This document shows positions 3,133 to 35,441 of a stretch of 40,228 bases of DNA, piece by piece. How positions within the stretch are numbered: position 1 is the first letter of the stretch; each line of letters begins with the position of its first letter. The translations under genes were made by a program, and so were the position numbers. The notes beneath the pieces are model-generated. The model made no database searches, had not been told where the DNA came from, and saw only the letters and a program-made list of their open reading frames with translations. Origin of the DNA: Balneolaceae bacterium (lineage in GTDB: Bacteria; Bacteroidota; Rhodothermia; Balneolales; Balneolaceae); NCBI GenBank assembly GCA_007135335.1, contig SLJB01000073.1, positions 1-40,228 of the forward strand, in the 5' to 3' direction.

Positions 3133-6099
3133 ATGGGAAAACAAATACATTCCTCACTATTAAAGTTGGGATTTAGTGTATTAATACTATTAGTGGCAGT
3201 TACTACTATTAATGCACAACAAATAACAGTAACAGGTACTGTTACCTCTGCTGCAACGGGCGAAACATTGCCGGGCGTGAATGTTACGATCGTTGGTACA
3301 GCAAGTGGTACAGTGACAAACCTTGACGGTGAATACTCACTAGCTGTAGCTTCCGACGCTACACTGAGATTCTCTTACATAGGGTTTCAGTCCAGAGATG
3401 TTGCAGTTGGCGGAAATTCGGTAATCAATGTTCAGCTTAATGAGAGTACTGCTACTCTTGATGAAGTTCTTGTACTTGGTTATGCTACAATTTCAAAACG
3501 TCAGGTAACCAGCTCGGTATCACAGATTTCAGGTGAAAATTTAAACGTGGTGGCTACACACGACCCGATTGATATGCTTCAGGGCCAGATGGCAGGTGTG
3601 GTTGTGAACCGATCATCCGGACAGCCGGGTGCAAACTCTTCGATTGAAATTCGTGGAAGGGGTTCTATTTCTGCTTCATCGTCTCCTCTCTATGTAATTG
3701 ATGGTGTTATTGCCGGTACAGGTTCACGCGATGCGGTCAGTCCTTCAGATATTGCTTCTATAACTGTGTTGAAAGATGCTGCTGCTACAGCGCTATACGG
3801 TTCCCGTGCATCAAATGGCGTTGTGGTTATTACCACTAAAAGAGGTCGTTCAGGTGCAACCCAGGTGAATGTTCGTTCGTCCGTTGGTTTTAGTCAGGTA
3901 CTTCAGGGTAATGAGGAGTTTATGAATGCTCAGGAATTGTATGACTGGCACCAGAATTTGGTAAATGCTCCATCAGGGCCATTCTACAACAGACAAGAGG
4001 TATTGGCACACGATACCAACTGGTTTGATGTTGGTTTTGACGGCGGCGGAACACAGAATTTTGAAGCCTCAGTTTCAGGTGGTGACGACCGGACTCGTTT
4101 CTATCTTTCCGGTGGTTATTATAATGAAACCGGAACCGGTATTGGTACCAACTTCGATCGTCTTTCAGGGCGTGTGAATGTTCAGCATAATCTAACGGAT
4201 CGTATCGAAATTGCAGCACAGGTATCAGGTACCTACTCAAGTCGGTTTGATGTGGTATCCGGTAACCCTTACAATATGCTGCGGTTTGCAGTAAGTAATG
4301 TACCGTGGGATACCCCTTACAATGCCGATGGTACTGTGCGAACCGGTAGAGAAGCTGACTGGTACTCTCGTGATTCGGAAAACCCTCTTCATGGTATGCA
4401 GTGGAATTCAGACGCGAACGATGTGACCTACTTCTCCGGAGATTTAAATCTTCGCTATAATATTGCCGACTGGGTTTCTTTCAGAACCAACAATCGTTTC
4501 TCTTTGAGAAATGGTGTTCGCGAGATTTTCCAGGATTCACGTTCTGCAGCCGGTGCAACAAGAAACGGTACAATTGAAAACAGAAATGATCAGTCACACT
4601 CTGTGATTACTTCTAACCTGTTCAATTTTAATAAAGGCTGGGCACGTCAATCACTGAGTGGTCTTGCAGGTTTTGAATTTCAGGATAACAGAAGTGAAAA
4701 TGCATGGGTAACCGGTATTGGTTTAGCTCCCGGAATGCAGATCTTAAGTTCTGCAGCTACTGCCTTTTCAACTGCAGGTAACATCAATGAAAGCGCATTT
4801 TCCTCTTTCCTTGCTCAGGCTGAGTATGAGTGGGCCGAAACCTACATTGCAACCCTCTCTTTCCGTCGCGATGGTTCTTCCCGATTTGGCGCCAACAACC
4901 GCTGGGGTAACTTCTGGTCGCTGTCCGGTTCATGGATTATCAGTAATGAAACATTCATGCAGGATGTTGACTTTCTGGATCAGTTAGCACTTCGGGCAAG
5001 TTACGGTACCACAGGTAATGCGGAGATCAGCAACTACGGTGCCTACGGTCTTTACGCATTTACACGTTCTTACTTCGGTGTTCCTGCCAGCTGGCCTGCA
5101 CGTACGCCTAATCCGGATCTTACATGGGAAGTTGCAAAAACGATCAATGTTGGTATTGATGTTGATGTAATGGACCGCGTAAACTTCTCTGTTGATGTGT
5201 ATCGAAGAGACAATGAAGATCTTCTTCAGAATGTAACGCTTCCGGGTACAAGTGGTATCAGCAGCCAGCTTCAAAACGTAGGAAGTGTGCGTAACCATGG
5301 TATTGAATTCCAGATTACCACTCGTAACGTTCAGTCAACCAGTTTTAACTGGAACACAACACTTACCCTTAGCAGCAACAGAAACGAAGTGATTGCTTTG
5401 AGTAATGGAGATGCCATTAACTACGGTGGTATATACAGAATTGAAGAAGGCTACGATATCAACTCCGTATATATGAGAAAATGGCACGGTGTGAATCCGC
5501 AAACGGGTGCTCCTCAGTGGGAAGTAGTTACACGTAACGATGATGGTGATATTATTGCCAGAGACATCACCGAAGATTACGGTACAGCCAATCCGCAAAT
5601 TGTTGGATCAACCACACCTAAATTTCAGGGTGGTATTAACAACTCATTCCAGTATGGCAACTTCTCGTTCAATGCATTTTTTACATTCGAGCAGGGCAGT
5701 CAGCGCTATTTGGGCGGATCAGGTCTTGATCATGGTGCTTACATGACCACGAACAAGCGTAAACTGCAGCCGGGCGAAAGCTACTGGAGACAGCCGGGTG
5801 ACAATGCAACATTTCCTGCGCAAATTGTAAATGGTAACAACAGTGCTCAGTTAGAATCTTCTCTCTATCTGTACGACAGTTCGTACCTGCGCTTAAGAAA
5901 TGCAAGAATTGCGTATGACCTGCCACAAGACAGCGGCATCATGCAGACACTCGGTATGAGAAGCCTGCGTGTATATGCAAGTGGAGACAACCTGCTCACT
6001 TTCACCAGCTATCCGGGTAAAGATCCCGCATCAGGTGTAGGTGGTGGCGGATACCCGATTGCCAAGACATACCTTTTTGGTATTGAATTAGGCTTTTAA
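3133..6099 (+). CDS. SusC-like TonB-linked outer-membrane transporter (first pair)
   Basis: 988 residues, typical of SusC/RagA. In order: signal peptide ending near NAQQ (about 29), a carboxypeptidase-regulatory-like beta-sandwich (about 32-110, with GETLPGVNVTIVGT), a TonB-box-like segment DEVLVLGYAT, a plug domain (about 120-235), the SusC signature region around SITVLKDAAATALYGSRAS, and a long barrel ending in an aromatic residue (IELGF). With its SusD partner 31 bp downstream it should import oligosaccharides or glycosides across the outer membrane using TonB energy. The ATG at 3133 is chosen because it gives a complete signal peptide. The ligand cannot be read from the sequence. The plug is distinct from that of the second SusC, suggesting different ligands. 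Confidence 0.96.
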   Translation: MGKQIHSSLLKLGFSVLILLVAVTTINAQQITVTGTVTSAATGETLPGVNVTIVGTASGTVTNLDGEYSLAVASDATLRFSYIGFQSRDVAVGGNSVINVQLNESTATLDEVLVLGYATISKRQVTSSVSQISGENLNVVATHDPIDMLQGQMAGVVVNRSSGQPGANSSIEIRGRGSISASSSPLYVIDGVIAGTGSRDAVSPSDIASITVLKDAAATALYGSRASNGVVVITTKRGRSGATQVNVRSSVGFSQVLQGNEEFMNAQELYDWHQNLVNAPSGPFYNRQEVLAHDTNWFDVGFDGGGTQNFEASVSGGDDRTRFYLSGGYYNETGTGIGTNFDRLSGRVNVQHNLTDRIEIAAQVSGTYSSRFDVVSGNPYNMLRFAVSNVPWDTPYNADGTVRTGREADWYSRDSENPLHGMQWNSDANDVTYFSGDLNLRYNIADWVSFRTNNRFSLRNGVREIFQDSRSAAGATRNGTIENRNDQSHSVITSNLFNFNKGWARQSLSGLAGFEFQDNRSENAWVTGIGLAPGMQILSSAATAFSTAGNINESAFSSFLAQAEYEWAETYIATLSFRRDGSSRFGANNRWGNFWSLSGSWIISNETFMQDVDFLDQLALRASYGTTGNAEISNYGAYGLYAFTRSYFGVPASWPARTPNPDLTWEVAKTINVGIDVDVMDRVNFSVDVYRRDNEDLLQNVTLPGTSGISSQLQNVGSVRNHGIEFQITTRNVQSTSFNWNTTLTLSSNRNEVIALSNGDAINYGGIYRIEEGYDINSVYMRKWHGVNPQTGAPQWEVVTRNDDGDIIARDITEDYGTANPQIVGSTTPKFQGGINNSFQYGNFSFNAFFTFEQGSQRYLGGSGLDHGAYMTTNKRKLQPGESYWRQPGDNATFPAQIVNGNNSAQLESSLYLYDSSYLRLRNARIAYDLPQDSGIMQTLGMRSLRVYASGDNLLTFTSYPGKDPASGVGGGGYPIAKTYLFGIELGF

Positions 6100-6130: not shown

Positions 6131-7693
6131 ATGAAACATATATATTTAAAAGCTGCTGTGGTATTCTTTCTCATCATGCTTTTAGCAGCATGCGACATTA
6201 CAAGAGCCCCTTATGACGGCATACCGCCGGATCAGGCACTTGCAAATGTGGAAGGAATAGAGAATGTTACGCGGGGGAATTACGCACATCTGAAAAATCT
6301 TACCGCAGGAACGAACAACCTCGTAATGATGATGTTCCAGTCCGGTGATTACCGAAGTGACGACCTGATGATTAGTGGTACCACGTCCAATCGGATGATG
6401 CTTACCTACAACTATCTTCACAATCCGGATATGCCAAATACTCTGAACCTTTGGAGACAAGGATATCAGATGATATACAATACCAATACGGTAATTGATG
6501 CGGTTACCCCGGGGACGTCACCTCAGATAGATCAGCTGTTAGGTGAAAACTATTTCCTGCGTGGAATGATGCATCTTTACATTGCAAAAGGATTTGCCAG
6601 GCCATACTCACATGGTACAAACAACCTTGGAATCCCGTATATGCGGGAACCCGATGTAAATGCGCGTCCTGCACGAGAATCTGTAGGTGATACTTACAAT
6701 TTTATTGTTCAGGACCTAACTCAGTCATATCAGCTGATGAACCAGCGAAAATCAAGTTCATTTGCTTCATCTGAAGCGGCCATGGCACTGCTTTCCAGAG
6801 TATATCTCTACATGGAAAACAATCAGGCAGCTCTTGAGTATGCTGACAGAGTGATTAACTCCGGGCGTTACCAGCTGATTGGCACGAATGACTATCCTCA
6901 ATACTTCACCATGAACAACGAAACGCGAAGTGAGTCGATCTTTGCGATCCATCACACTCCGGCTGATGACCATGGACGTAGTCATGGAATAGGTTCGATG
7001 TTCTATGAAAAATCCGGTTCGGGATGGGGAGAGAATTATGCCTCCGGTGCATTACGTGAGCTGTTAGATAAATGGCCTACGGATGTGCGTCGTGATTTCA
7101 TCGAGCCACAATATATCCTGGATGATGATGGAAACATTCAGTACCACCCAGACGGCAGACCGGTACTGCGAGAGCGTAACGGTTTCCCGAGATACTATGT
7201 CACCAAATTCGTAGGTCCTCCAACAGCACTTACTCTTTCACATCCTGAGCTTATTCGTTACACTGAGATTTATCTCAACAAAGCGGAAGCTCTTGCCAAA
7301 CTTGGAAGAGAGCAGGAAGCCCTGGATATTGTGAACCAGCTGAGAACCCGGGCAGGTATACCTGCCGAAGGCCTCTACTCACTAGGTAACCTTGGTACAC
7401 ACAGTACTGTACTTGACGTGGTAATCGAAGAGAGAAGGCTGGAGCTGTTCTTCGAGGGGCACAGAGCACACGATCTGTTCAGAAACAAGAAAACCATGTT
7501 CAGAAACTATCGCGGAACGCACCTCGCACCGGGCAACCCCGGCGTGGAATTCAGAGATAATCTTCCTGCAATTGCTAATGATCTCCCGCCGCTCGGTACT
7601 CAAACCATTGGCCCGGATCATCCGCGAATTGTATGGTATATTCCTGAAAGTGAACTCGATATCAACCCGAACTTAGTTCAGAATCCGAATTAA
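6131..7693 (+). CDS. SusD/RagB-like outer-membrane glycan-binding lipoprotein (first pair)
   Basis: 520 residues. The N-terminus has a lipoprotein signal peptide with lipobox LLAAC, so the mature protein starts at Cys21 and is probably surface-exposed on the outer membrane. Family hallmarks are seen: the TPR-like segment EIYLNKAEALAKLG, the VIEERRLELFFEGHRAHDLFR region near the C-terminus, and a final NPN-rich tail (NPNLVQNPN). SusD proteins form the lid over the SusC barrel and capture the ligand. It lies 31 bp after SusC and is followed by a strong terminator 17 bp past its stop, so the pair looks like a self-contained transcription unit with limited read-through into the GH109-like cassette. 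The ligand is unknown. Confidence 0.96.
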   Translation: MKHIYLKAAVVFFLIMLLAACDITRAPYDGIPPDQALANVEGIENVTRGNYAHLKNLTAGTNNLVMMMFQSGDYRSDDLMISGTTSNRMMLTYNYLHNPDMPNTLNLWRQGYQMIYNTNTVIDAVTPGTSPQIDQLLGENYFLRGMMHLYIAKGFARPYSHGTNNLGIPYMREPDVNARPARESVGDTYNFIVQDLTQSYQLMNQRKSSSFASSEAAMALLSRVYLYMENNQAALEYADRVINSGRYQLIGTNDYPQYFTMNNETRSESIFAIHHTPADDHGRSHGIGSMFYEKSGSGWGENYASGALRELLDKWPTDVRRDFIEPQYILDDDGNIQYHPDGRPVLRERNGFPRYYVTKFVGPPTALTLSHPELIRYTEIYLNKAEALAKLGREQEALDIVNQLRTRAGIPAEGLYSLGNLGTHSTVLDVVIEERRLELFFEGHRAHDLFRNKKTMFRNYRGTHLAPGNPGVEFRDNLPAIANDLPPLGTQTIGPDHPRIVWYIPESELDINPNLVQNPN

Positions 7694-7709
7694 GTTTCAT
7701 ATTACCCCA

Positions 7710-7753
7710 AAAAAGGTGCCCTCTTCAGAGGGTGCCTTTTTCCTATTTTTTTT
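7710..7753 (+). terminator. Rho-independent terminator after the first SusC/SusD pair
   Basis: Arms at 7710-7723 and 7728-7741 form a 14-bp stem (AAAAAGGTGCCCTC / GAGGGTGCCTTTTT, two adjacent wobble pairs) with a TTCA loop, followed by further T runs to 7753. It starts 17 bp after the SusD stop. Confidence 0.88.
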
Positions 7754-7832
7754 GTAACTCATATTATCAGCTCTTTCTGAGGGCTGACAACATCAGTTAT
7801 TTAAACACATTATTAATCTTACCCTACTTCAT

Positions 7833-9245
7833 ATGAAAAATAACCGTCGTGAATTCCTGAAAAAAAGCGGCCTGGCCGGTCTTGGTTTAATGGGGGCCGG
7901 TCTTTCCGGTTCAGCAAAAGATAATGCGCCATTTAAGCTGAATAACAGAAATAGTTTTAACATGCATGGTTATAAAGCTCCTGCAATAGATACTGTTGGT
8001 GTGGCTATCATCGGTCTTGGGAATCGGGGAACGGGAACCACGAGAAGGCTGGCAAGCATTGAGGGTGTAGAAATTAAAGCCATCTGTGATTTAGAGCCGG
8101 ATCGCGTTGAGCGGGCAAAAGGAATTCTGGAAACAACACATCACCGCCCGGATGGCTATTCCGGTGGAGAAGATGAGTGGAAAAAAGTATGTGAGCGAGA
8201 TGATATTGATCTTGTTGCTGTTGTAACCCCGTGGCACCTTCATACTGTACAGTGTGTGTATGCCATGGAAAACGGCAAACACGCCTATACCGAACTTCCT
8301 GCCGCAAACACGATAGATGAATGCTGGGAACTTGTGGAAACATCAGAGCGTACTAAAATGCACTGTGTTCAAATGTCCAGTTCTTGCCACGGCGGCAGGC
8401 AGGCTGTACTGCTCAATATGATTCGTCATGGTGTTTTCGGTGAATTGATTCATGCTGAGGGTGCTTATGTACACGATCTCCTTAATGATTACAATTTTAC
8501 AAAGCATATGTACCACAACATGTGGCGCCTGAATGAAAATATTGGCCGGCACGGAAGTTTGTACCCGCAGCACGGATTTATTCCCATTTCACAAATGATG
8601 GACCTTAACTACGGCGACACAGTTGAGCATCTCGTGTCAGTTTCGAGCAACGATTTTATGATGGGTGAAACTGCCAAAAAGCTGGCGGCTGAAGATTCCT
8701 ACTGGGAGCAGTATGTAGGTAAAGATTATCGCGGCAACATGAACGTAACCACCATGAAGACCGCAAAAGGCAAAACCATTGTGATTCAGCATGACGTGAC
8801 ATCGCCGCGCCCTCGTCCGCAGCAACCACTTCTCAGCGGTACCAAAGGATTTTATGCAAACGGCCGCTTTGCAACCGATCACAGCAGATATTTTACGGAT
8901 GAAGAGTTTCAGGAACTGGTAGATCAGTACACTCCGCAAATTACCAAAGTATTTCGTGAAGCTGTTGAACAGGCAAGCAATACAGAGCGTGGCAGACATT
9001 CCTATTTTAATGTGAATGAAACTGACTGGCGATTAATCGACAGCCTTCGGAATGGCCTGCCTGTTGAAATTGATGTTTATGATGCCGCACTTTCAAGTGC
9101 AATTACACCGCTGAGTGAATGGTCCGTGGCAAACAGATTCAATTCAGTTCGTGTACCCGATTTTACCTCCGGCGCTTGGAAAACAAACAGCCGGGGTATG
9201 GATATTAACCTCGAGAATGGCGGTGGTACAACAGGTATTCTATAG
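7833..9245 (+). CDS. Tat-exported GH109-like Gfo/Idh/MocA-family protein, paralogue A
   Basis: 470 residues. A Tat signal (NRREFLKKSG then a hydrophobic stretch) has no lipobox Cys, so the mature protein should be soluble in the periplasm. A Rossmann NAD-binding domain follows (IIGLGNRGTG, about 59-68), then the Gfo/Idh catalytic domain. The stretches EDEWKKVCERDDIDLV, TPWHLH, HAEGAYVHDL, NMWRLNEN and LYPQHGF match the pattern of GH109, a family of NAD-dependent alpha-N-acetylgalactosaminidases acting by transient oxidation. The Glu of ELP (154) and the His of PQHG (247) are kept, but the position where GH109 normally has Tyr in a CYG-type motif is His186 (SSSCHGG). It starts 80 bp after a terminator. 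It may be a glycosidase or a glycoside dehydrogenase on an altered substrate; Gfo/Idh membership is certain, the reaction is not. Confidence 0.88.
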   Translation: MKNNRREFLKKSGLAGLGLMGAGLSGSAKDNAPFKLNNRNSFNMHGYKAPAIDTVGVAIIGLGNRGTGTTRRLASIEGVEIKAICDLEPDRVERAKGILETTHHRPDGYSGGEDEWKKVCERDDIDLVAVVTPWHLHTVQCVYAMENGKHAYTELPAANTIDECWELVETSERTKMHCVQMSSSCHGGRQAVLLNMIRHGVFGELIHAEGAYVHDLLNDYNFTKHMYHNMWRLNENIGRHGSLYPQHGFIPISQMMDLNYGDTVEHLVSVSSNDFMMGETAKKLAAEDSYWEQYVGKDYRGNMNVTTMKTAKGKTIVIQHDVTSPRPRPQQPLLSGTKGFYANGRFATDHSRYFTDEEFQELVDQYTPQITKVFREAVEQASNTERGRHSYFNVNETDWRLIDSLRNGLPVEIDVYDAALSSAITPLSEWSVANRFNSVRVPDFTSGAWKTNSRGMDINLENGGGTTGIL

Positions 9246-9267
9246 TACAGCTCTTAATTAGCACTCA

Positions 9268-9304
9268 ATGTCTCCCGGGAAGATCAGCTCAACCCGGGAG
9301 ACAT
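9268..9304. repeat. Perfect 12-bp inverted repeat (intercistronic hairpin)
   Basis: ATGTCTCCCGGG at 9268-9279 and CCCGGGAGACAT at 9293-9304 are perfect complements around a 13-nt loop, between paralogue A and the first amidohydrolase. No T tract follows, so it is not a standard intrinsic terminator. A role in RNA stability, processing or partial attenuation is inferred. Confidence 0.75.
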
Positions 9305-9337
9305 ATCTATTAAACCGGAACATTTTTAAAAAATAAC

Positions 9338-10483
9338 ATGGAAAACAACCGACGTACTTTTCTGAAAAAAAGCGGATTGGCCGGCCTTGGTTTGGCTGGT
9401 TTGGGATTTATGGGTTCAGCCCCGGCTAAAGAAGAAAATCAATCCACAAATTTTGATGTTGAAAATGGCAACCTTCGTCTCATTGATTGGGAACCGATAT
9501 CACAAATGGTGGTAAAGGAGACCGAAGTTCTCAAACCAAAATATCCCGCCATTGATATCCACAATCACCTGCGCGATCTGGACAGCCTGCCCGACTATCT
9601 GAAAGCAATGGATGAAGCCGGAGTGTGGAAGGTTGTAAGTCTGGATGGCCGTTCGGCAGATAATTTTTACATTGAGCATATCAGGGCTTGTCAGCGGGTT
9701 AGCAGAAACCGCTTTGTTGTTTTCTTTACTCCCGATTTAACCAAAATTGATGAGCCCAACTACGGGCAGCGTGAAGCCGACAAACTGGAACATGCTGTTG
9801 AATTAGGCGCCCGTGGTGTGAAGATTTTCAAATCGCTTGGACTTACCGCTAAAGACAGAAACGGTAATATTGTACCGGTTGATGATCCGCGATTAGATCC
9901 CTTCTGGGCTAAATGCGGTGAACTGGGTATTCCCTGCTTAATGCATGTTTCTGATCCTAAGGCTTTCTTTACACCGGTTGATCGCTATAACGAACGGTAT
10001 GACGAACTGGGTGAGCGTCCGCACTGGGCATTCTTTGGTGATGAATTCCCGGACAAAGAAGACATACTGGATCAGCGTAATCGTGTCTTTGAACGCCATC
10101 CAGATACTACATTTATAGCCACACACATGGCCAATCTGCCCGAAGAACTTGGGCGAGTATCTATGTGGCTGGAAAAATATCCCAATATGTATGTGGATAT
10201 TAATGCAAGGATCAGTGAACTGGGCCGCCAGCCATACACATGCAGAAAGTTCATGATTAAATACCAGGACAGGATCCTGTTCGGCACCGATACGCGTCCC
10301 AACGTGGAAGCTTTCAGAATCTATTATCGTTTTCTGGAAACGGATGATGAATATATAAATGCCGATGCAAGTCACCATCGCCAGGGAAGATGGCATATTT
10401 ACGGTGTTCACCTGCCTGATGAAGTTCTTGAAAAAATCTACAACAAGAATGCCGTTAAAATATTCAATCAGTTTAAAGGATAA
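9338..10483 (+). CDS. Tat-exported amidohydrolase-2 family TIM-barrel metal hydrolase
   Basis: 381 residues. The N-terminal Tat signal NNRRTFLKKSGLAGLGL is nearly the same as that of the upstream GH109-like gene, although the mature domains are unrelated; no lipobox Cys, so soluble periplasmic. The amidohydrolase metal-site pattern is intact: HNH (His75/His77) in strand 1, Lys162 region (VKIFKSLG), His203 (CLMHVSD), His263 (IATHMANL) and Asp318 (LFGTDTR). The family includes sugar lactonases and decarboxylases as well as amide hydrolases. Between redox-type glycosidase genes, hydrolysis of a lactone or an acyl/amide substituent is reasonable, but the substrate is not readable. It lies 92 bp after paralogue A (with a hairpin between) and 61 bp before paralogue B, probably in the same operon. 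Confidence 0.88.
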   Translation: MENNRRTFLKKSGLAGLGLAGLGFMGSAPAKEENQSTNFDVENGNLRLIDWEPISQMVVKETEVLKPKYPAIDIHNHLRDLDSLPDYLKAMDEAGVWKVVSLDGRSADNFYIEHIRACQRVSRNRFVVFFTPDLTKIDEPNYGQREADKLEHAVELGARGVKIFKSLGLTAKDRNGNIVPVDDPRLDPFWAKCGELGIPCLMHVSDPKAFFTPVDRYNERYDELGERPHWAFFGDEFPDKEDILDQRNRVFERHPDTTFIATHMANLPEELGRVSMWLEKYPNMYVDINARISELGRQPYTCRKFMIKYQDRILFGTDTRPNVEAFRIYYRFLETDDEYINADASHHRQGRWHIYGVHLPDEVLEKIYNKNAVKIFNQFKG

Positions 10484-10544
10484 ACACCATATGCTGATCT
10501 CAGGACTCAACAATCAACTAAAGCTCAACTAAATCTTCATAACC

Positions 10545-11981
10545 ATGAAAAGCAATCGCAGAGATTTTCTAAAAATATCGGGAATAGGCACATTAGGTAT
10601 TTTAGCAGGCTGTACTTCCAGTCGCGAAATAGAAAGCAAATTAAGTGAAATCAGAGAACAGGCTGAACGCACCCGAACGCAGCATTTTAATATGCACGGC
10701 TATGCCGCACCTGCAATGGATGTGGTTCGCGTTGGCGTTACCGGTTTGGGTAATCGTGGTTCAGGTACTGCGCGCCGTTTTGCAAGTATCGCAAATGTAG
10801 AGGTTGTAGCCCTGAACGATGTTCGCCCTGAAATGGTAGAGCGCTCGAAACAAGCAATTTCAGCATCGCATGACCCTGTGGGCTACTCAGATGGCCCCGA
10901 AGACTGGAAACGAATGTGCGAACGCGATGACATAGACCTGATCTGCATTGCCACCCCATGGGAACTGCACGCACCGCAGGCTATTTACGCTATGGAGCAT
11001 GGCAAGCATGTGTATGTGGAATTACCTGCTGCCAATACATTGGAAGAGTGCTGGCAGCTTGTGGAAACATCAGAACGAACACAAAAACACCTTGTTCAGA
11101 TGTCAAGCTCGTGCCATTATGGAGATGCTTCATTCGTGCTTAATATGATTCGCCAGGGACTTTTTGGTGAAGTTTTGCATGCAGAGGGTGGTTACATTCA
11201 TGATTTGATGAACTCACACAACTTCTCTAAAACTATGTATTATGAGATGTGGAGGCTGAACGAAAATATCGATCGTGACGGAAATCTCTATCCTCAGCAC
11301 GCTTTAACTCCAATGGCACAGATGATGGATATTAATTACGGCGATCAGTTTGATCACCTGGTTTCTATGCAGACAAACGATTTCATGATGGGTAAAAAAG
11401 CTGAAGAGCTTGCCGCTGAAGACAGTTTCTGGGAGCCGTATGTTGGCCGCAATTACAGCGGAAATATGAACACTACTCTTGTACGAACAGCCAATGGAAA
11501 AACAATCGTTATTCAGCATGATGTAACCACACCCCGTCCGGGTATTCGATTCCATATGATTAATGGAACCAAAGGTTCATATCTGGCACGTCCGGGTAGA
11601 ATAGGTTTCAGTTACCGGGATGGATGGATTCCGCAAGCAGATTATGATGCGCTGGTAGAAGAGTACACACCAAGAATTACCAAAGTTTTTAATGAGATGA
11701 TTCGACAGGCTGAGCAAACCGGCAGGCCGGAACACTCCTATGCGCGAGTAAATGCCATGGACTGGCGTTTGATTGACTGTCTCAGAAATGGTCTTCCCGT
11801 AGAGGTTGACGTTTACGATTCAGTAGCTACTACATCTATAACTCCGTTAAGTGAGTGGTCTGTGGCCAATGGATCCATGCCGGTTAAGGTGCCGGATTTC
11901 ACCGGTGGTTCATGGAGAACCAATGAGCGAGGAATGAACGTAAACCTGGAAACAGGTGGCGGAAATACCCGCATCAGATAG
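10545..11981 (+). CDS. Tat-exported GH109-like Gfo/Idh/MocA-family lipoprotein, paralogue B
   Basis: 478 residues. The Tat signal SNRRDFLKISG is followed by a lipobox (ILAGC, Cys23), so it is a likely Tat lipoprotein tethered in the periplasm, unlike paralogue A. A short charged helix (about 26-45) precedes a shared FNMHGYAAPAMD linker. The NAD-binding loop is GLGNRGSG (about 67-74). GH109-like blocks include CERDDIDLICIATPWE, AMEHGKHVYVELPAA, HAEGGYIHDLM and LYPQHALTP. Glu159 and the PQH His are retained; the GH109 Tyr position carries His191 in SSCHYG, with a Tyr one residue later. Paralogue A is its closest relative in the window by eye. A terminator-like hairpin follows. Expected to be NAD-dependent, working on a glycoside; hydrolysis versus net oxidation is undecided. 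Confidence 0.88.
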   Translation: MKSNRRDFLKISGIGTLGILAGCTSSREIESKLSEIREQAERTRTQHFNMHGYAAPAMDVVRVGVTGLGNRGSGTARRFASIANVEVVALNDVRPEMVERSKQAISASHDPVGYSDGPEDWKRMCERDDIDLICIATPWELHAPQAIYAMEHGKHVYVELPAANTLEECWQLVETSERTQKHLVQMSSSCHYGDASFVLNMIRQGLFGEVLHAEGGYIHDLMNSHNFSKTMYYEMWRLNENIDRDGNLYPQHALTPMAQMMDINYGDQFDHLVSMQTNDFMMGKKAEELAAEDSFWEPYVGRNYSGNMNTTLVRTANGKTIVIQHDVTTPRPGIRFHMINGTKGSYLARPGRIGFSYRDGWIPQADYDALVEEYTPRITKVFNEMIRQAEQTGRPEHSYARVNAMDWRLIDCLRNGLPVEVDVYDSVATTSITPLSEWSVANGSMPVKVPDFTGGSWRTNERGMNVNLETGGGNTRIR

Positions 11982-12173: not shown

Positions 12174-13607
12174 ATGGAAAGCAATCGCAGAGATTTTCTG
12201 AAAGCAGCAGGTGTAGGTTCGTTAGGTTTGATGGGTGCAGGTTTACTAAGCAGTTGTTCAAACAAAGCAGAAGCCCAAAGCCATTTAAACCATATAGAAG
12301 AGCAGGCCAACAGGCAATACACACCACAATTCAACATGCATGGTTTTGCTGCTCCGGCATTGGATGTTGTTCGTATCGGGGCTACGGGTCTGGGTGGCAG
12401 GGGTTCCGGAAATATGCGAAGATTGGCACAGATTGAAGGTGTGGAGATCAGAGCTCTGAACGATTTGGACCCCGGGAGAACACAGGCCGCTGCAGAATCC
12501 ATCAGTCATTTTGGGTTCAATCCTGAACTCTATTCCGGCCATGAAGATGATTGGAAAAAAATGTGTGAACAAGACGACCTCGATCTGATTATCGTCGGCA
12601 CGCCGTGGCATCTGCATGCACCGCAGGCTATTTATGCGATGGAGCAGGGCAAGCACGTGGCTGTTGAAGTGCCCATTGGCGTAACTGTTGAAGAGTGCTG
12701 GAAACTGGTTGAAACATCGGAGCGAACCCGTAAGCACTGCATGATGATGTCGAACCCGAATTACGGCGATTTTAACATGATGGTACTCGGAATGGCGCGC
12801 GATGGGTTCCTCGGAGAAATTATACATGGCGAAGGTGCCTACATCCACGACCTGATGCGATCACACAATTTCACGCAGAGATACCACAACATGTGGCGGC
12901 TGAAAGAGAATGCAACCCGCGATGGAAACCTCTATCCAACACACGGACTCGGTTCACTATGCCAGGCAATGGATATAAACAACGGTGACCAGATGGACTT
13001 TATAGTATCGGTTTCTTCGAACGATTTTATGATGGGTGAAACAGCCAAAGAGTTAGCCGCTGCCGACCCGGCTTTCGAACCATTTGTGGGGATGAATTTT
13101 CGAGGAAATATGAACACGAGTATCATCAAAACGAAAAAAGGTCGCACAATTATGCTCCAGCACGATGTTACTTCGCCGCGACCCGGTGTTCGCTTTGATC
13201 TGCTGAGCGGAACAAAAGGCATTGTTCAAAACAGGCCTCCACGATTTGCTCATGATCACGACGGCTGGGTGAGTGATACTGAATTTGCCGAAATTCAGGA
13301 GAAGTACAGACCTGAAATCAGTAAACGTGTAGGTGATATCTCAAGGCAAATTGGAGGCCATGGCGGCATTGACACCATGATGAGCTGGCGCCTTGTGGAC
13401 TGCCTCCGTAACGGAATTCCGCTGGATATGTCGGTTTATGACGGCGTATTGTGGAGTGTTATTGCTCCCTTAAGTGAGTGGTCGGTTGCTAACAACGGAA
13501 GGCCAATCAACGTGCCTGATTTTACAGCAGGCAACTGGCAGACCAACGACCGCTTGATGGATATTGAACTTGTTCATGGCGGCAATACAGGTATTAAACC
13601 GATTTAG
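12174..13607 (+). CDS. Tat-exported GH109-like NAD-dependent glycosidase-family lipoprotein, paralogue C
   Basis: 477 residues. The Tat signal SNRRDFLKAAG ends in a lipobox-like LLSSC (Cys28), so probably a periplasmic lipoprotein. NAD loop GLGGRGSG (about 72-79). Of the three paralogues this is closest to canonical GH109: VEVPIGVTVEECW (Glu165), Tyr197 in NPNYGD where EmNagA-type enzymes have their Tyr, and His257 in LYPTHG, plus GEGAYIHDLMRSHNF and NMWRLKENATRDGNLYPTHGLG. A GH109 alpha-N-acetylgalactosaminidase-like retaining reaction through NAD-mediated oxidation at C3 is therefore plausible, though not proved. It starts 113 bp after a terminator and is followed at 31 bp by a lipoprotein amidohydrolase, suggesting a second unit (C, amidohydrolase, GMC). 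Alternative: a glycoside 3-dehydrogenase. Confidence 0.9.
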   Translation: MESNRRDFLKAAGVGSLGLMGAGLLSSCSNKAEAQSHLNHIEEQANRQYTPQFNMHGFAAPALDVVRIGATGLGGRGSGNMRRLAQIEGVEIRALNDLDPGRTQAAAESISHFGFNPELYSGHEDDWKKMCEQDDLDLIIVGTPWHLHAPQAIYAMEQGKHVAVEVPIGVTVEECWKLVETSERTRKHCMMMSNPNYGDFNMMVLGMARDGFLGEIIHGEGAYIHDLMRSHNFTQRYHNMWRLKENATRDGNLYPTHGLGSLCQAMDINNGDQMDFIVSVSSNDFMMGETAKELAAADPAFEPFVGMNFRGNMNTSIIKTKKGRTIMLQHDVTSPRPGVRFDLLSGTKGIVQNRPPRFAHDHDGWVSDTEFAEIQEKYRPEISKRVGDISRQIGGHGGIDTMMSWRLVDCLRNGIPLDMSVYDGVLWSVIAPLSEWSVANNGRPINVPDFTAGNWQTNDRLMDIELVHGGNTGIKPI

Positions 13608-13638
13608 CCTGAATGTTCACAAAATCAGAAATGGAATA

Positions 13639-14811
13639 ATGAAAAAATCAAAACGGAACAGGTCATTGATGGCCGGCAGAATGCTCAGTTTATTTATAAG
13701 TCTGCTAATACTTCAGGGCTGTTCAAACACAGATAATCCAGGGAGCGAATATTACTCGCCGGATGATTACACCTCGGTGCCAAAATTTAATTCCCATGTG
13801 CACCTGCATGGCGATAATACCACCTATATCGATCAATCGGTTGATGACAATTTTAAACTGCTTTCGTTTGTCTCCTCTTCTCCAAACAGAACCAGACAAA
13901 TCTCCATTATAGACCAGGAAAAACATACCCTGCAACTCATGGAGAGTTATCCCGAAGATTTGTTCTTAACAACAACTCTGTTAAATCCTTACGGATTTAA
14001 TGAAGAGGGATGGGTGGAAGAAGCGATAGCTCATATGGATCAATCTTTCAAAAACGGAGCGGTGGCCATAAAAATAAGAAAAAGCATTGGGATGGAAGTG
14101 CGAAAACCCAATGGTGATTTTGTCCGGATTGACGACCCGAAATTTGATCCGATCATTCAGTTTATCGCAGATAACAACATCACGCTGATTGGCCATATCG
14201 GCGAGCCGAAAAATTGCTGGCTGCCACTTGAGGAGATGACAGTTGGAGGCGATAGGCAGTATTACAGTGAAAATCCACAATATCATATGTACCTGCATCC
14301 CGAATTTTTATCGCACGAGGATCACATCAGCGCGGTCGAAAATATGCTTGAGAAGCATCCGGATGTACGCTATGTTGGGGCGCATCTTGCAAGCCTTGAG
14401 TATGATGTGGATGAACTCGCAAAACGGCTCGACAGGTTTCCGAACCTGGCTGTTGATATGGCCGAACGCATTTCACATTTTCAATATCAGGCTGTAACCG
14501 ACTGGCAAAAAGTCCGCGATTTTTTTATCAAGTACCAGGACCGGCTGATCTATGCCACGGATGATTCGAACTATGGCCCAAAACCCTACTTTGGAGCTGA
14601 ACTTACAGATCAAACACTGAGAACAGATCAGCAAATTCGCGATGCCACAACCGAAAATTATCAGCGGCATTGGAAGTTTTTCACTTATGATGGCGTGATG
14701 ACCGCCCCAAAATTACCGGACATGGAGTTTCGTGCATTGAATCTTCCCAAAGAAGTGGTAGATAAGATCTACCTGGAAAATGCACAAATATGGTTTCCCG
14801 GAATATTATAG
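13639..14811 (+). CDS. Amidohydrolase-2 family lipoprotein
   Basis: The ORF track starts at 13564, inside paralogue C; I choose the ATG at 13639 because it gives 390 residues beginning MKKSKRNRS, a basic n-region, a hydrophobic stretch and a lipobox ILQGC (Cys28), and removes the overlap. TIM-barrel metal ligands are seen: SHVH (His53/His55), a Lys in AIKIRKSIG, His in IGHIGEP, His in GAHLAS and Asp in YATDDS. It shares long blocks (GHIGEP, NCWLPLEEMTV, a LPKEVVDKIY ending) with the - strand amidohydrolase at the right end of the window but is only distantly related to the one at 9338. Likely a periplasmic hydrolase of a glycan-derived amide or lactone; the substrate is unknown. It lies 31 bp after paralogue C and 115 bp before the GMC gene. 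Confidence 0.87.
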   Translation: MKKSKRNRSLMAGRMLSLFISLLILQGCSNTDNPGSEYYSPDDYTSVPKFNSHVHLHGDNTTYIDQSVDDNFKLLSFVSSSPNRTRQISIIDQEKHTLQLMESYPEDLFLTTTLLNPYGFNEEGWVEEAIAHMDQSFKNGAVAIKIRKSIGMEVRKPNGDFVRIDDPKFDPIIQFIADNNITLIGHIGEPKNCWLPLEEMTVGGDRQYYSENPQYHMYLHPEFLSHEDHISAVENMLEKHPDVRYVGAHLASLEYDVDELAKRLDRFPNLAVDMAERISHFQYQAVTDWQKVRDFFIKYQDRLIYATDDSNYGPKPYFGAELTDQTLRTDQQIRDATTENYQRHWKFFTYDGVMTAPKLPDMEFRALNLPKEVVDKIYLENAQIWFPGIL

Positions 14812-14926: not shown

Positions 14927-16642
14927 ATGAATTTTATTGGTAAAACCACAGAAGAGCGAACATTTGATGCTATTGTAATAGGCTCCGGGATGAGCGGCGG
15001 ATATGCTGCCAAGGAGCTATGTGACAGGGGGGTAAAGACCCTTGTTCTTGAAAGAGGACGCCCGCTCAAACATGGCGATTATCCCACAGCAACTCTCGAC
15101 CCCTGGGAGATAGACAATGCCGGGCGTCTGTCACGCGAAATGCTTCAGCGAAATCCGATTATAGCCCGCTGTTACGCGTACGATAAAACAACGGAGCATC
15201 TCTTTGTGAAGGATGAGGAGCAGCCTTATATACAGGAAAAACCGTTTGACTGGATCCGCAGTTACCAGGAAGGTGGAAAATCCCTGGTATGGGCTCGTGG
15301 CTGCCAGCGATGGAGCAAGTACGATTTTGAAGCCCCGGGCCGTGATGGTTACGGTATCGAGTGGCCTATTACCTATGATGATCTTGCACCCTGGTATTCA
15401 GATGTGGAACGGTTTGTAGGCTGGAGCGGAAATAAGGATGGCCTGGAGCATTTTCCTGATGGTGAGTTCCTGCCCCCGTATGAGTTTAACTGTGTTGAAA
15501 AACACATGAAAGAGAAAGTAGAAAGCACATTTAAAGATAGGTTTTTTATCCAGGGACGATGCGCCCATCTTACTGAAGTTAAAGAAATTCACCGGCAGCA
15601 GGGCAGGGGGCTGTGCCTCTCCAGAACATTATGCCAGCGCGGCTGTCCGTATGGCGCTTATTTCAGCTCAAATTCCTCTACACTACCCTGGGCAGAGCGA
15701 ACAGGGAATCTTACCATCCGTACCCATTCTGTGGTGCACTCCATCATCTATGATGAAGACCTGGGTAAGGCAACAGGTGTGCGGGTAGTGGATGCTAATA
15801 CCCTCGAGATGACTGAATTTTATGCACGGATTGTGTTTGTGAACGCAGCCTGCATCAATTCGAATATGATATTGCTGAATAGTACGTCAGATCGATTTCC
15901 AAACGGACTGGGCAATGACAGCGGTGTACTTGGTCACTACATCGGTTTTCATAACTATCGCGGACGAATGAGCGCCACGATTGATGGTTTTGACGATAGT
16001 TATTTTTACGGCAGGAGACCGACCGGCCCTATCATCCCCCCATTTCGAAATGTTTTCGGTCAGGAGAGTGATGCAGATTTTCAGGGTCGATATCATATCT
16101 CAATGAATGCAAGCCGTCCCGGGTGGAACCGTGGTGTGCGATCAGATAAGATCGGAAAAGAGTTGATTGAAGAACTTCAGACTCCCGGAAGCTGGAGAAT
16201 CGGCGGGCGGATGTCAGGTGAAGTGGTGCCGAAGTTCGAAAATCATGTTCGCCTCAGTGAAACAGAGACCGATAAATGGGGTTTCCCGCAGCTAGTTATT
16301 TCCATTGATTACGCTGAAAATGATGTAAAAATGATGCACGATTTTCTGGAAAAGGGAGCTGAGATTCTGGAAGCTGTGGGAGGGAAAAACATCACAGTGA
16401 GTGATAATAACCAGGCTCCCGGACTTGACATCCACGAGATGGGAGGTGTGCGGATGGGTAAAGATCCCAAAACATCCATCCTGAACAAATGGAACCAGGT
16501 GCACAGTTGCAAAAATGTATTTGTGACCGATGGTGCTTGCATGACCACCGTTTCTACTCAAAATCCTTCGTTAACATTTATGGCTTTGACTGCAAGAGCA
16601 GCAAATTACGCCGTAGAACAGATACGAAAAGGTGATTTGTGA
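14927..16642 (+). CDS. GMC-family flavoprotein oxidoreductase
   Basis: 571 residues. FAD-binding Rossmann motif near the N-terminus (IVIGSGMSGGYAAKEL, then TLVLERGR), the flavin-contact segment GGKSLVWARGCQRW, and a C-terminal GMC domain with HEMGGVRMG (His about 503) and TQNPSLTFMALTARAA (Asn about 546), the His/Asn pair of the pyranose-2-oxidase and glucoside-3-dehydrogenase branch. It should oxidise a sugar hydroxyl to a ketone. No signal peptide precedes the Rossmann fold and no small Tat-bearing 'subunit 3' partner is nearby, so it looks cytoplasmic or dependent on an unlinked partner. It ends the + strand cassette, 92 bp from a convergent PIG-L gene. Production of a 3-keto sugar is inferred from the DUF1080 and Gfo/Idh genes in the locus. 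Confidence 0.92.
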   Translation: MNFIGKTTEERTFDAIVIGSGMSGGYAAKELCDRGVKTLVLERGRPLKHGDYPTATLDPWEIDNAGRLSREMLQRNPIIARCYAYDKTTEHLFVKDEEQPYIQEKPFDWIRSYQEGGKSLVWARGCQRWSKYDFEAPGRDGYGIEWPITYDDLAPWYSDVERFVGWSGNKDGLEHFPDGEFLPPYEFNCVEKHMKEKVESTFKDRFFIQGRCAHLTEVKEIHRQQGRGLCLSRTLCQRGCPYGAYFSSNSSTLPWAERTGNLTIRTHSVVHSIIYDEDLGKATGVRVVDANTLEMTEFYARIVFVNAACINSNMILLNSTSDRFPNGLGNDSGVLGHYIGFHNYRGRMSATIDGFDDSYFYGRRPTGPIIPPFRNVFGQESDADFQGRYHISMNASRPGWNRGVRSDKIGKELIEELQTPGSWRIGGRMSGEVVPKFENHVRLSETETDKWGFPQLVISIDYAENDVKMMHDFLEKGAEILEAVGGKNITVSDNNQAPGLDIHEMGGVRMGKDPKTSILNKWNQVHSCKNVFVTDGACMTTVSTQNPSLTFMALTARAANYAVEQIRKGDL

Positions 16643-29284: not shown

Positions 29285-30037
29285 ATGAACAGAAGAGAAT
29301 TTGCAAAGAATGCACTAATGGCCTCCACAATGTTGGGTACGGCATCCGGTATTAACAAACTTGCACAAAACAGCCTTTCATTATCGGATGGAGATATACC
29401 CGCTTTTAAAAAACTGTTCAACGGGAGAGATCTTACAAATTTTGTGGATGTGAATACTTCCGATGATACCTGGAAGGTTGAAGATGGCATTTTAAAATGT
29501 ACAGGCTGGCCAATTGGTGTAATGCGCACAGAAAAACAGTATGAAAATTTTATCCTTGATGTAGAGTGGAGATTTTTGGAGGAAGGCGGGAATTCGGGGA
29601 TGTTTGTCTGGGCTGATGGTGAGCCATTTGAAGACAGACCATTTCCTACGGGTATGGAAGTACAAATGCTCGATCCTGAATGGGCTGTGATTAATGAACG
29701 GCCTGTAGAATACGTTCACGGACACTTGTTTCCCGTAATGGGTCTGGAGGGAACCATTCCGGATAACCCTTCTGAAATCAGAGGACGAAGTAAAGCTCTT
29801 GAAAACAGAATGAATAATACCTTTCAGTGGAACAGGTACATTCTTGTTGCTGTAGATGGTACGCTGAAACTATCGGTAAATGGGAAATTTGTAAACGGAA
29901 TACGTTCACCAAAACGGAAAAAAGGGTATATATGTCCCGAAGCAGAAGGTGCTGAAATTCATTTCAGAAAAATTGATATTATGGAACTGCCCGGTAGTGT
30001 TATAACCGAAGATCAGATAGCACCGAAAGTGGGCTGA
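29285..30037 (+). CDS. Exported DUF1080 (3-keto-disaccharide hydrolase family) protein
   Basis: 250 residues, single-domain size. An N-terminal Tat-like leader (NRREFAKNALMASTM) without a lipobox Cys suggests a soluble periplasmic protein. The DUF1080/PF06439 jelly-roll is clear from LFNGRDLTNF (about 41-50), TWKVEDGILKC, EWRFLEEGGNSGMFVW and MEVQMLD. Family members act on 3-keto-glycosides, cleaving the glycosidic bond after a dehydrogenase has introduced the ketone. The upstream Gfo/Idh is the natural partner and the PIG-L gene follows at 43 bp. I would expect hydrolysis or 1,2-elimination of a 3-keto-glycoside; which of the two, and on which sugar, cannot be read from the sequence. Confidence 0.92.
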   Translation: MNRREFAKNALMASTMLGTASGINKLAQNSLSLSDGDIPAFKKLFNGRDLTNFVDVNTSDDTWKVEDGILKCTGWPIGVMRTEKQYENFILDVEWRFLEEGGNSGMFVWADGEPFEDRPFPTGMEVQMLDPEWAVINERPVEYVHGHLFPVMGLEGTIPDNPSEIRGRSKALENRMNNTFQWNRYILVAVDGTLKLSVNGKFVNGIRSPKRKKGYICPEAEGAEIHFRKIDIMELPGSVITEDQIAPKVG

Positions 30038-32648: not shown

Positions 32649-35441
32649 ATGAAAAAATTACGCTCAAAATTGTACCTGGGGTTGATCGTTTCCCTTCTTA
32701 TTGTCTCCGGCAAATCTGCTGAAAAAGCTACCGCTCAAACTACACAGCCAGATTATCAAAACGTAATTTATGATGAGGTTACAAGACTCATTGTAAATAT
32801 GCCGGCAGACCAACAGGAAGAGGAGAATTGGGTAAACGAGCAACTTTCTGCATTTGGGGGAGATGCTGTCCGGGCTTTGTCGTCAATGCTGACGGACCCG
32901 ATGGTTGGCAGTGATCTTAAAGCAAGATATGCTCTGAGTAGTTTGGCCAATTTTACAGCCGGTTCTGCATCAAAAAAACAGGCGTTTGAAACGGCTATTT
33001 TGGATGAAATAAAAAAAGACCGCCCAATGGAAGTAAAAAGGTTTCTATTGGAGCAGTTGATATTAACCGGCAGCGAACAATCTGTACCTGCTCTTGAAAC
33101 ATATTTAACTCATGAGAAACTTTATAACAATACATTAAGAGTTTTTCAGACTCTGGGTACATCATCAGCTGCAACTGCCGTAAGAAATACACTGCCTTCT
33201 GTTGAGGGTGAACAAAAAGTTGCAATGATTAAAGCATTGGGCGAGTTCAAAGACAAAGCAGCAACAGAGCAACTGATGGAATTTGCAGCTTCTGATCAGT
33301 GGCCGCTAAAGCGTGTGTCTCTCAATGCACTAGCGAATATAGGGGAACCGGGTTCGTCAGGACATTTTGAAAATGCAATTCAACAGTATGAACAGTTCAG
33401 AGAGTCTGAAATTATCTCTTACTATCTGCATTATGCAAACAGGCTTGCCGATAACGGGTATAAGACTGAAAGCAGCTCAATTACAGATTATTTTTTGGGA
33501 AATGATTTTCCCGGCCACATCAAAAATTCTGCTCTCCATACACGTTTTCAACTTTATGGAGCTGATATCTTAGATGAACTTTTCGAAACTGCCCGGTCAG
33601 CTGATATACTTCGCGCCAAATCCGCCCTGGCGATGATAAATTCTCTGGAAGAATCAGGTGTAACAGAAAGCATAGCGGCTGCACTTGGGTCGGCACCGGA
33701 ATTAAACAAAGTTTATTTCTTAGAAGCGCTGGGTGAGCGCGGCGACAGATCAGCAGCACCCACACTTAGAAATTATATCGATGATGCAAATAACGAAATA
33801 CGAATTGAGGCACTTTATGCACTGTACCAACTGGAGGGGCAAATTGAGCCGGAGCTCGTTATCAGTGTTTTAAATGTGATCGATACAGATAGCGAAGTCC
33901 GGAAAGTGGAAGAACTTCTTCTTCAAATGGACTCTGAATATATTATAACAACCGCTGCAAATGCCCTGCCGGATGCAAACGTACACGCCAAACCTGTTCT
34001 TATTCAATTGCTTACCGTCCGGTTTGCAAACGAACATCGGGAGCTTGTTCGGAATGAGCTGGATGCAGATGACGAAATGGTGCGAATAGCTGCATATCAA
34101 TACATTGCCGGGATGGGAGATGAACAGGATGTGGGTACAATGGCAGATCGGATGGGTCAAAATATCTCTGATGTAGAACGAAATGCATTGCTGGATTCAT
34201 TTGCTGATCTGGTAAACCGTTCAGTACCGGAAACCAACAGGAATGATCTGATCAGCCAATATTACTCTTCAGGTACAACAGATCAGAAAATTCTGATCAT
34301 TCAGACAGTCCCAAAGCTTGAAGGCATCGACAAAGCCGGGATTATAAATAGCGGACTGAATCATGAAAACCGTGAAGTTCAATCTGCTTCTATACGATCA
34401 CTCAGAGAATGGAATAGTGCAGATGCGCTTCCTTTATTGATTCAGGCAGTTTCCATGAGAACGGGTGAGGAACAATTTGCAGTTATCTCGCGCTATGTGC
34501 AACTGGTAAACTCTTTGGACGAGCCTGTTAACCAAAAAGAACAACATCTGCATGAATTATATAATAGCATGCAATCAGAAGAGAGCAGAATAGCTGTTTT
34601 GGAACAATTTGTGCTGGCTGATGATCTTCCGGCACTACAGGCAGTAAGCGTTTACTTTACAAATAGTAGTGAGAATATCCGCAACGTTGCTTATCAAACG
34701 GCATCTGCCCTTTTAATGCCATATTATACAGAAAGTCCTCAGGTATTTAACGGTATAGAAGCAGTTCTTGCTGTTTTACATGAGGATTCAAGAGAGAGCA
34801 TTAGATCAATTATGGCAGAAAAAAGAGAACGCGCCAAAGAAGATTCAGGTGAAGGAGAAAAAGATACAGAGCCGGTATTCGGTTCCTTATTTAATGGTGA
34901 AAATCTTGATGGATGGCAGGTAATAGGAGATCACCAGGATTCGTGGGGTGTGGAAGATGGCCTTTTATATACCGATGGAGTAGGGAGTGGCTGGATATCT
35001 ACTGCAAGCCGATACGATGATTTCATTATTGAATTGGAATACCGGGTGCCCGAAGCAGGTAATAGTGGTTTATTTATCAGGGCACCGCACGAAGGAAGTC
35101 CTGCATATCAGGGTATTGAAATTCAAATTTTGGATGATTATGCAGATCGGTATGCGAATCTGAGGCCGTGGCAATTTACCGGGAGTATCTATTTCCAGCA
35201 GGCACCGTCTAAAAGAGTAACAAAACCTGCAGGTGAATGGCAAACCATGAAAGTACGTGCAGAAGGCCCCAAAATTCAGGTTACTCTCAACGGCGAGCTA
35301 ATCATAAATGCCAATCTTATCAACTATATGGAAAATGTTGATAGCCATCCGGGCCTGGTTAGAAGATCCGGATTTATAGGGCTGCAAAATCATGGAGACA
35401 GGGTGGACTTTCGAAATATTACTATTCGGCCAATAAAGTAA
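32649..35441 (+). CDS. HEAT-repeat protein fused to a C-terminal DUF1080 domain
   Basis: 930 residues, exported by a Sec signal (about 1-29, ending near ATAQ). Residues about 45-740 are all-alpha repeats of HEAT/armadillo type, with recurrent units such as ALGEFKDKAATEQLMEFA and EALGERGDRSAAPTLRNYI. A short charged linker (EKRERAKEDSGEGEKDTE) leads into a C-terminal DUF1080 domain (about 750-930: LFNGENLDGWQV, SWGVEDGLL, EAGNSGLFIR, IEIQILDD). The DUF1080 part should act on 3-keto-glycosides, while the HEAT solenoid may bind the substrate or partner enzymes. It follows an exported Gfo/Idh by 48 bp, its likely keto-forming partner. The fusion type is known from Planctomycetota and Bacteroidota genomes; its function is not established to my knowledge. 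Confidence 0.92.
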   Translation: MKKLRSKLYLGLIVSLLIVSGKSAEKATAQTTQPDYQNVIYDEVTRLIVNMPADQQEEENWVNEQLSAFGGDAVRALSSMLTDPMVGSDLKARYALSSLANFTAGSASKKQAFETAILDEIKKDRPMEVKRFLLEQLILTGSEQSVPALETYLTHEKLYNNTLRVFQTLGTSSAATAVRNTLPSVEGEQKVAMIKALGEFKDKAATEQLMEFAASDQWPLKRVSLNALANIGEPGSSGHFENAIQQYEQFRESEIISYYLHYANRLADNGYKTESSSITDYFLGNDFPGHIKNSALHTRFQLYGADILDELFETARSADILRAKSALAMINSLEESGVTESIAAALGSAPELNKVYFLEALGERGDRSAAPTLRNYIDDANNEIRIEALYALYQLEGQIEPELVISVLNVIDTDSEVRKVEELLLQMDSEYIITTAANALPDANVHAKPVLIQLLTVRFANEHRELVRNELDADDEMVRIAAYQYIAGMGDEQDVGTMADRMGQNISDVERNALLDSFADLVNRSVPETNRNDLISQYYSSGTTDQKILIIQTVPKLEGIDKAGIINSGLNHENREVQSASIRSLREWNSADALPLLIQAVSMRTGEEQFAVISRYVQLVNSLDEPVNQKEQHLHELYNSMQSEESRIAVLEQFVLADDLPALQAVSVYFTNSSENIRNVAYQTASALLMPYYTESPQVFNGIEAVLAVLHEDSRESIRSIMAEKRERAKEDSGEGEKDTEPVFGSLFNGENLDGWQVIGDHQDSWGVEDGLLYTDGVGSGWISTASRYDDFIIELEYRVPEAGNSGLFIRAPHEGSPAYQGIEIQILDDYADRYANLRPWQFTGSIYFQQAPSKRVTKPAGEWQTMKVRAEGPKIQVTLNGELIINANLINYMENVDSHPGLVRRSGFIGLQNHGDRVDFRNITIRPIK

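Follow-up and report, generated by a model that had tools for sequence, protein, structure and literature searches.

A GH109-related lineage in a Balneolaceae locus lacks the GGHGG acid/base loop and may comprise exported NAD-dependent sugar oxidoreductases

GH109 alpha-N-acetylgalactosaminidases, represented by the solved enzymes AmGH109A (6T2B) and EmNagA (2IXA), achieve hydrolysis by way of an initial oxidation of the sugar. The proposed catalytic set of AmGH109A comprises Tyr226, His259 and His404 (PMC10755693); published residue numbers equal those of the 6T2B chain plus 25, so that these residues are Tyr201, His234 and His379 in the chain. By the title of Teze 2020, as quoted in PMC10755693, the acid/base lies in the GGHGG loop, to which His404 belongs. 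In the text of PMC10755693, His404 is given the C3 chemistry and His259 the leaving group, an assignment that appears reversed relative both to that title and to the paper's own contacts for the NAD-dependent sulfoquinovosidase SqgA, in which His321 (the His404 equivalent) meets the C1-OH and His193 (the His259 equivalent) meets the C3-OH. Based on the quoted title and these contacts, we read His404 as the leaving-group acid/base and His259 as the C3 residue. In the Spirosoma enzyme, mutation of the His259 equivalent (H225A) abolishes activity (PMC6521355). The residues listed as contacting GalNAc are Glu240, Arg244, Tyr256 and Tyr339 (PMC13335675).

We analysed a window of 40,228 nucleotides from a Balneolaceae metagenome-assembled genome (MAG) whose closest relatives are other Balneolaceae MAGs (L009, L012); the CSSed isolate labels suggest a soda-lake sediment habitat. 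The window encodes three paralogues, here called A, B and C, that share a Tat signal, a Gfo/Idh/MocA NAD-binding domain and the GH109 C-terminal domain PF21252 (Table 1). Taking a PF21252 match above the gathering score together with a NAD-binding Rossmann domain as the mark of a GH109-like protein, all three qualify, each scoring above the cut-off of 27 bits. The paralogues are 53–59% identical to one another (A and B, 59%) and 30–41% identical to 6T2B and 2IXA (A and 6T2B, 33%). AlphaFold2 models of A and C (pLDDT 87.3 and 89.5) both have 6T2B as their best PDB match, with query/target-normalised TM scores to chain A of 0.81/0.86 for A and 0.83/0.90 for C; target-normalised values for C span 0.90–0.92.

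Table 1. Features of the A/B/C locus, in positions of the window; AmGH109A residues carry published numbers
Feature	Position	Strand	Remarks
Gene A	7833..9245	+	470 aa; PF21252 125 bits, PF01408; RREFLK signal; His-type
A Glu154 (GAA)	8292-8294	+	E-x-P Glu
A His186 (CAC)	8388..8390	+	replaces AmGH109A Tyr200 / EmNagA Tyr153
A Tyr212	8466..8468	+	AmGH109A Tyr226 (proposed C2 base), kept
A His247	8571..8573	+	AmGH109A His259, kept
A GRHSY (387-391)	8991..9005	+	replaces GGHGG; Tyr391 clade-invariant, His389 not invariant
Amidohydro_2 (PF04909) protein between A and B	9338..10483	+	Tat-like signal
Gene B	10545..11981	+	478 aa; PF21252 130 bits; His-type
B Glu159	11019-11021	+	E-x-P Glu
B His191 (CAT)	11115..11117	+	replaces AmGH109A Tyr200
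B PEHSY (395-399)	11727..11741	+	replaces GGHGG; Tyr399 clade-invariant
Gene C	12174..13607	+	477 aa; PF21252 124 bits; Tyr-type
C Glu165	12666-12668	+	E-x-P Glu
C Tyr197 (TAC)	12762..12764	+	AmGH109A Tyr200
C GGHGG (394-398)	13353..13367	+	His396 = AmGH109A His404 acid/base
Second Amidohydro_2 protein	13564..14811	+	start overlaps 3' end of C
GMC oxidoreductase	14927..16642	+	related to fructose dehydrogenase large subunit; adjoins Tyr-type gene in relatives

The first-pass annotation of this DNA had pointed to a single position, 32 residues past a conserved Glu, at which a GH109 Tyr is kept in C and replaced by His in A and B. The translated coordinates bear this out, the spacing being 32 residues in each protein, and in MAFFT and HMMER alignments to GH109 structures the three residues share a column with 2IXA Tyr153 and 6T2B chain Tyr175, that is, AmGH109A Tyr200. 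The range given for the comparison, 8380-11130, leaves C outside. What the position means had also been misread: the catalytic Tyr of characterised GH109 enzymes is AmGH109A Tyr226, which A, B and C all retain, and the literature searched assigns Tyr200 or EmNagA Tyr153 no role in the GH109 mechanism. Nor are the flanking anchors, the Glu and a downstream His (His247 in A, His252 in B, His257 in C), peculiar to GH109. They are the E-x-P Glu and catalytic His of Gfo/Idh/MocA proteins at large, so their retention cannot separate a hydrolase from a dehydrogenase.

The Tyr200 site may nevertheless line the sugar pocket. Judged by spacing, it could correspond to SqgA Tyr136, which contacts the C2-OH (PMC10755693). 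In an alignment to 4H3V, A His186 pairs with the Tyr within an F-T-Y-R-R motif; the inositol-dehydrogenase-like structure 3EC7 has Arg at the site, and a residue other than Tyr is thus not odd within the superfamily.

The decisive change in A and B, as we read the alignments, is one that the earlier annotation missed: the GGHGG acid/base loop, retained in C, is gone from both. Equivalents of Tyr226, Arg244, Tyr256 and His259 are retained in all three proteins, as is PF21252, and the models of A and C share the GH109 fold, whereas A and B differ from AmGH109A and EmNagA in lacking both Tyr200 and GGHGG with its His404. None of the three paralogues has equivalents of Glu196, Glu240 and Tyr339, and the GalNAc-contact set is therefore incomplete in each, with Arg244 and Tyr256 kept and Glu240 and Tyr339 lost. 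The E-K-P catalytic Lys of canonical Gfo/Idh/MocA dehydrogenases is also absent, the motif reading ELP in A and B and EVP in C.

A survey of 159 distinct homologues showed that the two changes travel together. At the Tyr200 site 29 homologues had His, two had Ser and one had Ala, and GGHGG was absent from all 32; it was present in 124 of the 125 with Tyr or Phe, the remaining one (L140) having QGHGG. After reduction to 80% non-redundancy the loop occurred in 0 of 19 His/Ser/Ala-types and 67 of 68 Tyr/Phe-types. These counts (32 vs 125) are not independent observations, as both changes trace to about one event. With His in 29 of the 32 relatives in the A/B clade and Tyr in 124 of the 125 Tyr/Phe-type relatives, the difference between A/B and C is not noise. 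Coupling of Tyr and loop is not absolute, since a divergent GH109-like lineage (L014_2, L014_4, L180_1, L180_3) lacks Tyr200 and keeps the loop His.

Within the His/Ser/Ala group, equivalents of A His247, Tyr212, Arg232 and Tyr244 are kept in 32 of 32, and the NAD-binding glycines are invariant in His-types. The replacement loop is mostly of the form [H/R][S/G]Y, with DW at its end; its Tyr (A Tyr391) is invariant in 32 of 32, and it has no conserved His. Where A and B have His in the loop, most others have Arg, the nearest non-orthologue relatives of B (L014, L015) among them.

The replacement is old. In a tree built without the trait columns, 23 His-types and one Tyr-type row formed a clade (SH-aLRT 97), and a tree holding all His-types together had the higher likelihood and was not rejected (AU p 0.577). 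A and B lie far apart inside the His-type clade, C falls in a separate Tyr-type group, and the clade has members in Balneolota, Cyclobacteriaceae and Bacteroidales MAGs. So wide a clade implies that the change predates any local duplication of A, B and C, which rules out the origin by duplication within the locus that had been suggested. The invariant core and purifying selection, with dN/dS of 0.02–0.04, argue against decay of A and B into pseudogenes: values against orthologues were 0.022–0.027 for A and 0.031–0.039 for B, with 0.037 for C, at dS near or above saturation.

Combining these observations, we propose, with about even confidence, that A and B are exported, NAD-dependent oxidoreductases of sugars or glycosides, acting by C3 oxidation or epimerisation without the GH109 leaving-group acid/base, and that C is a NAD-dependent glycosidase for a sugar other than GalNAc. 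Export of A and B is suggested by their Tat signals. On this proposal, the A/B lineage would have lost the GGHGG loop and swapped a neighbouring active-site Tyr for His, while retaining the C3-step His259 and C2-step Tyr226 equivalents. A and B would then oxidise, reduce or epimerise a sugar at C3 to give a 3-keto glycoside or sugar product, stopping short of the four steps (oxidation, elimination, hydration, reduction) through which GH109 enzymes achieve hydrolysis. C, with the full catalytic set, would probably be a glycosidase. The first-pass idea of altered chemistry in A and B is plausible, on the basis of the lost loop rather than of a catalytic Tyr. Its suggestion that C keeps glycosidase activity fits the retained catalytic residues; GalNAc hydrolysis by C is doubtful, because the Glu196, Glu240 and Tyr339 equivalents are gone.

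Known dehydrogenases and SqgA offer partial parallels. SqgA has a Gfo/Idh/MocA-type fold and a His at the C3-OH as in A and B, for which the same oxidoreductive chemistry is proposed, but the similarity is distant, and in SqgA the His321 acid/base is still present and Lys107 also meets the C3-OH. The NAD-binding domains of A and B match the glycoside 3-dehydrogenase models NF058561 (BT_2158_fam) and NF058563 (BT_2159_fam) and the levoglucosan dehydrogenase model NF052479 at 1e-6 to 1e-16; scores of 28–60 bits, or 20.7–50.5 bits when judged against the two BT families, nevertheless fall far below the curated cut-offs of 650–750, and the E-K-P Lys is missing. This ELP without the dehydrogenase Lys, as in both solved GH109 enzymes, counts against our proposal, and implies that A and B are no simple reversion to an ordinary dehydrogenase.

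Could another residue have taken over the acid/base work in A and B? Candidates are the loop His, at 389 in A and 397 in B, and the invariant Tyr391 and Tyr399. A and B might accordingly still be NAD-dependent glycosidases, with His186/His191 and the loop Tyr replacing Tyr200 and His404, that cut another substrate or anomer. The occurrence of both changes on the same clade and the invariance of the new loop Tyr in 32 of 32 speak for such an exchange, and if Tyr200 corresponds to ArSqgA Tyr136 both sites would lie near C1 and C2 of the sugar. We consider it unlikely, given that the A/B loop is one residue longer than that of C between His and Trp, that loop 387-391 of A is modelled at pLDDT below 50 (about 94 for the GGHGG region of C), and that the literature search turned up no GH109 enzyme with such an exchange.

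The genes beside A and B raise a different reading. PF04909 includes sugar lactonases, and A and B might convert a free sugar, by oxidation at C1, into a lactone whose ring is then opened by the neighbouring Amidohydro_2 protein. The superfamily of A and B includes C1 oxidisers, such as the glucose-fructose oxidoreductase among the PDB matches, and 14 of 20 His-type genes have a same-strand amidohydrolase gene no more than 2.5 kb away. Such a gene is also found near 19 of 50 Tyr-types that lack a His-type neighbour (p 0.019, kinship of genomes ignored), an excess too weak to make the amidohydrolase a diagnostic His-type partner. With that link not specific to His-types, with the closest solved Amidohydro_2 relatives being weak matches to benzoate decarboxylase (E about 3e-4), and with C3 rather than C1 facing NAD in the closest enzymes, we regard C1 oxidation as improbable. 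Similarly improbable is a hetero-oligomer in which A and B serve tandem Tyr-type paralogues such as C as non-catalytic or regulatory subunits: 10 of the 20 His-type genes with enough flank have a Tyr-type paralogue within 4 kb, yet half do not, and the NAD-binding glycines and the Tyr226, Arg244, Tyr256 and His259 equivalents are invariant.

Returning to C3 oxidoreduction as the favoured reading, we tentatively suggest, at somewhat less than even confidence, that A and B belong to a GH109-derived subfamily. Its members would have exchanged GGHGG and a Tyr of the pocket for a His in the pocket and an invariant Tyr in the loop, so that a redox-assisted hydrolase became an exported oxidoreductase or epimerase of sugars, NAD-dependent and acting in sequence with neighbouring GH109-like enzymes that are intact. 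If true, the branch would reveal which part makes the GH109 family a hydrolase: the family hydrolyses through initial oxidation, so a lineage with the oxidation residues and without the leaving-group acid/base is informative. In practical terms, presence or absence of GGHGG offers a simple motif test for sorting PF21252 proteins, and caution is advisable in naming them alpha-N-acetylgalactosaminidases. In this genome the catalytic loop is missing from at least three such genes (A, B and one on contig C274), and the database name for A and B probably misdescribes their chemistry; loss of GalNAc-site residues counts against the name for C as well.

The source genome (G000) holds eight PF21252 genes, with further copies on contigs C149, C154, C274 and C67, the C274 copy being a third His-type. 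These short contigs may belong beside the window (contig C30), since in the relative G007 the contig with A, B and C also carries a His-type/Tyr-type pair and canonical GH109 genes. The orthologous cluster in G007 further includes fucose-isomerase-like and DeoC-type genes. The divergent lineage without Tyr200 is represented in L014 by genes at 4062-5408 and 6611-7957 (also found in L180), with TVLG-GF at the Tyr200 site and the loops RGHGGSN and EGHGRRM; this pair flanks an amidohydrolase gene near a B relative in Rhodohalobacter.

Elsewhere in the window lie two SusC/SusD pairs and other Gfo/Idh/MocA genes, as well as genes for a class II aldolase and an FGGY kinase. Two PF06439 (3-keto-disaccharide hydrolase) genes, at 29285-30037 and 32649-35441, one of them fused to HEAT repeats, adjoin further Gfo/Idh/MocA genes and the second SusC/SusD pair. 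Members of PF06439 have 3-keto sugars as substrates (PMC9007349); together with the other Gfo/Idh/MocA genes and the FDH-like GMC enzyme, their presence speaks for our proposal, and a 3-keto-glycoside pathway in the same window is possible. A PIG-L deacetylase at 16735-17607 matches the bacillithiol BshB1 model at 118.7 bits, below the cut-off of 182.5. On the minus strand, 36616-38682 encodes a 688-aa protein without a Pfam match that is conserved in G007, there beside an amidohydrolase gene.
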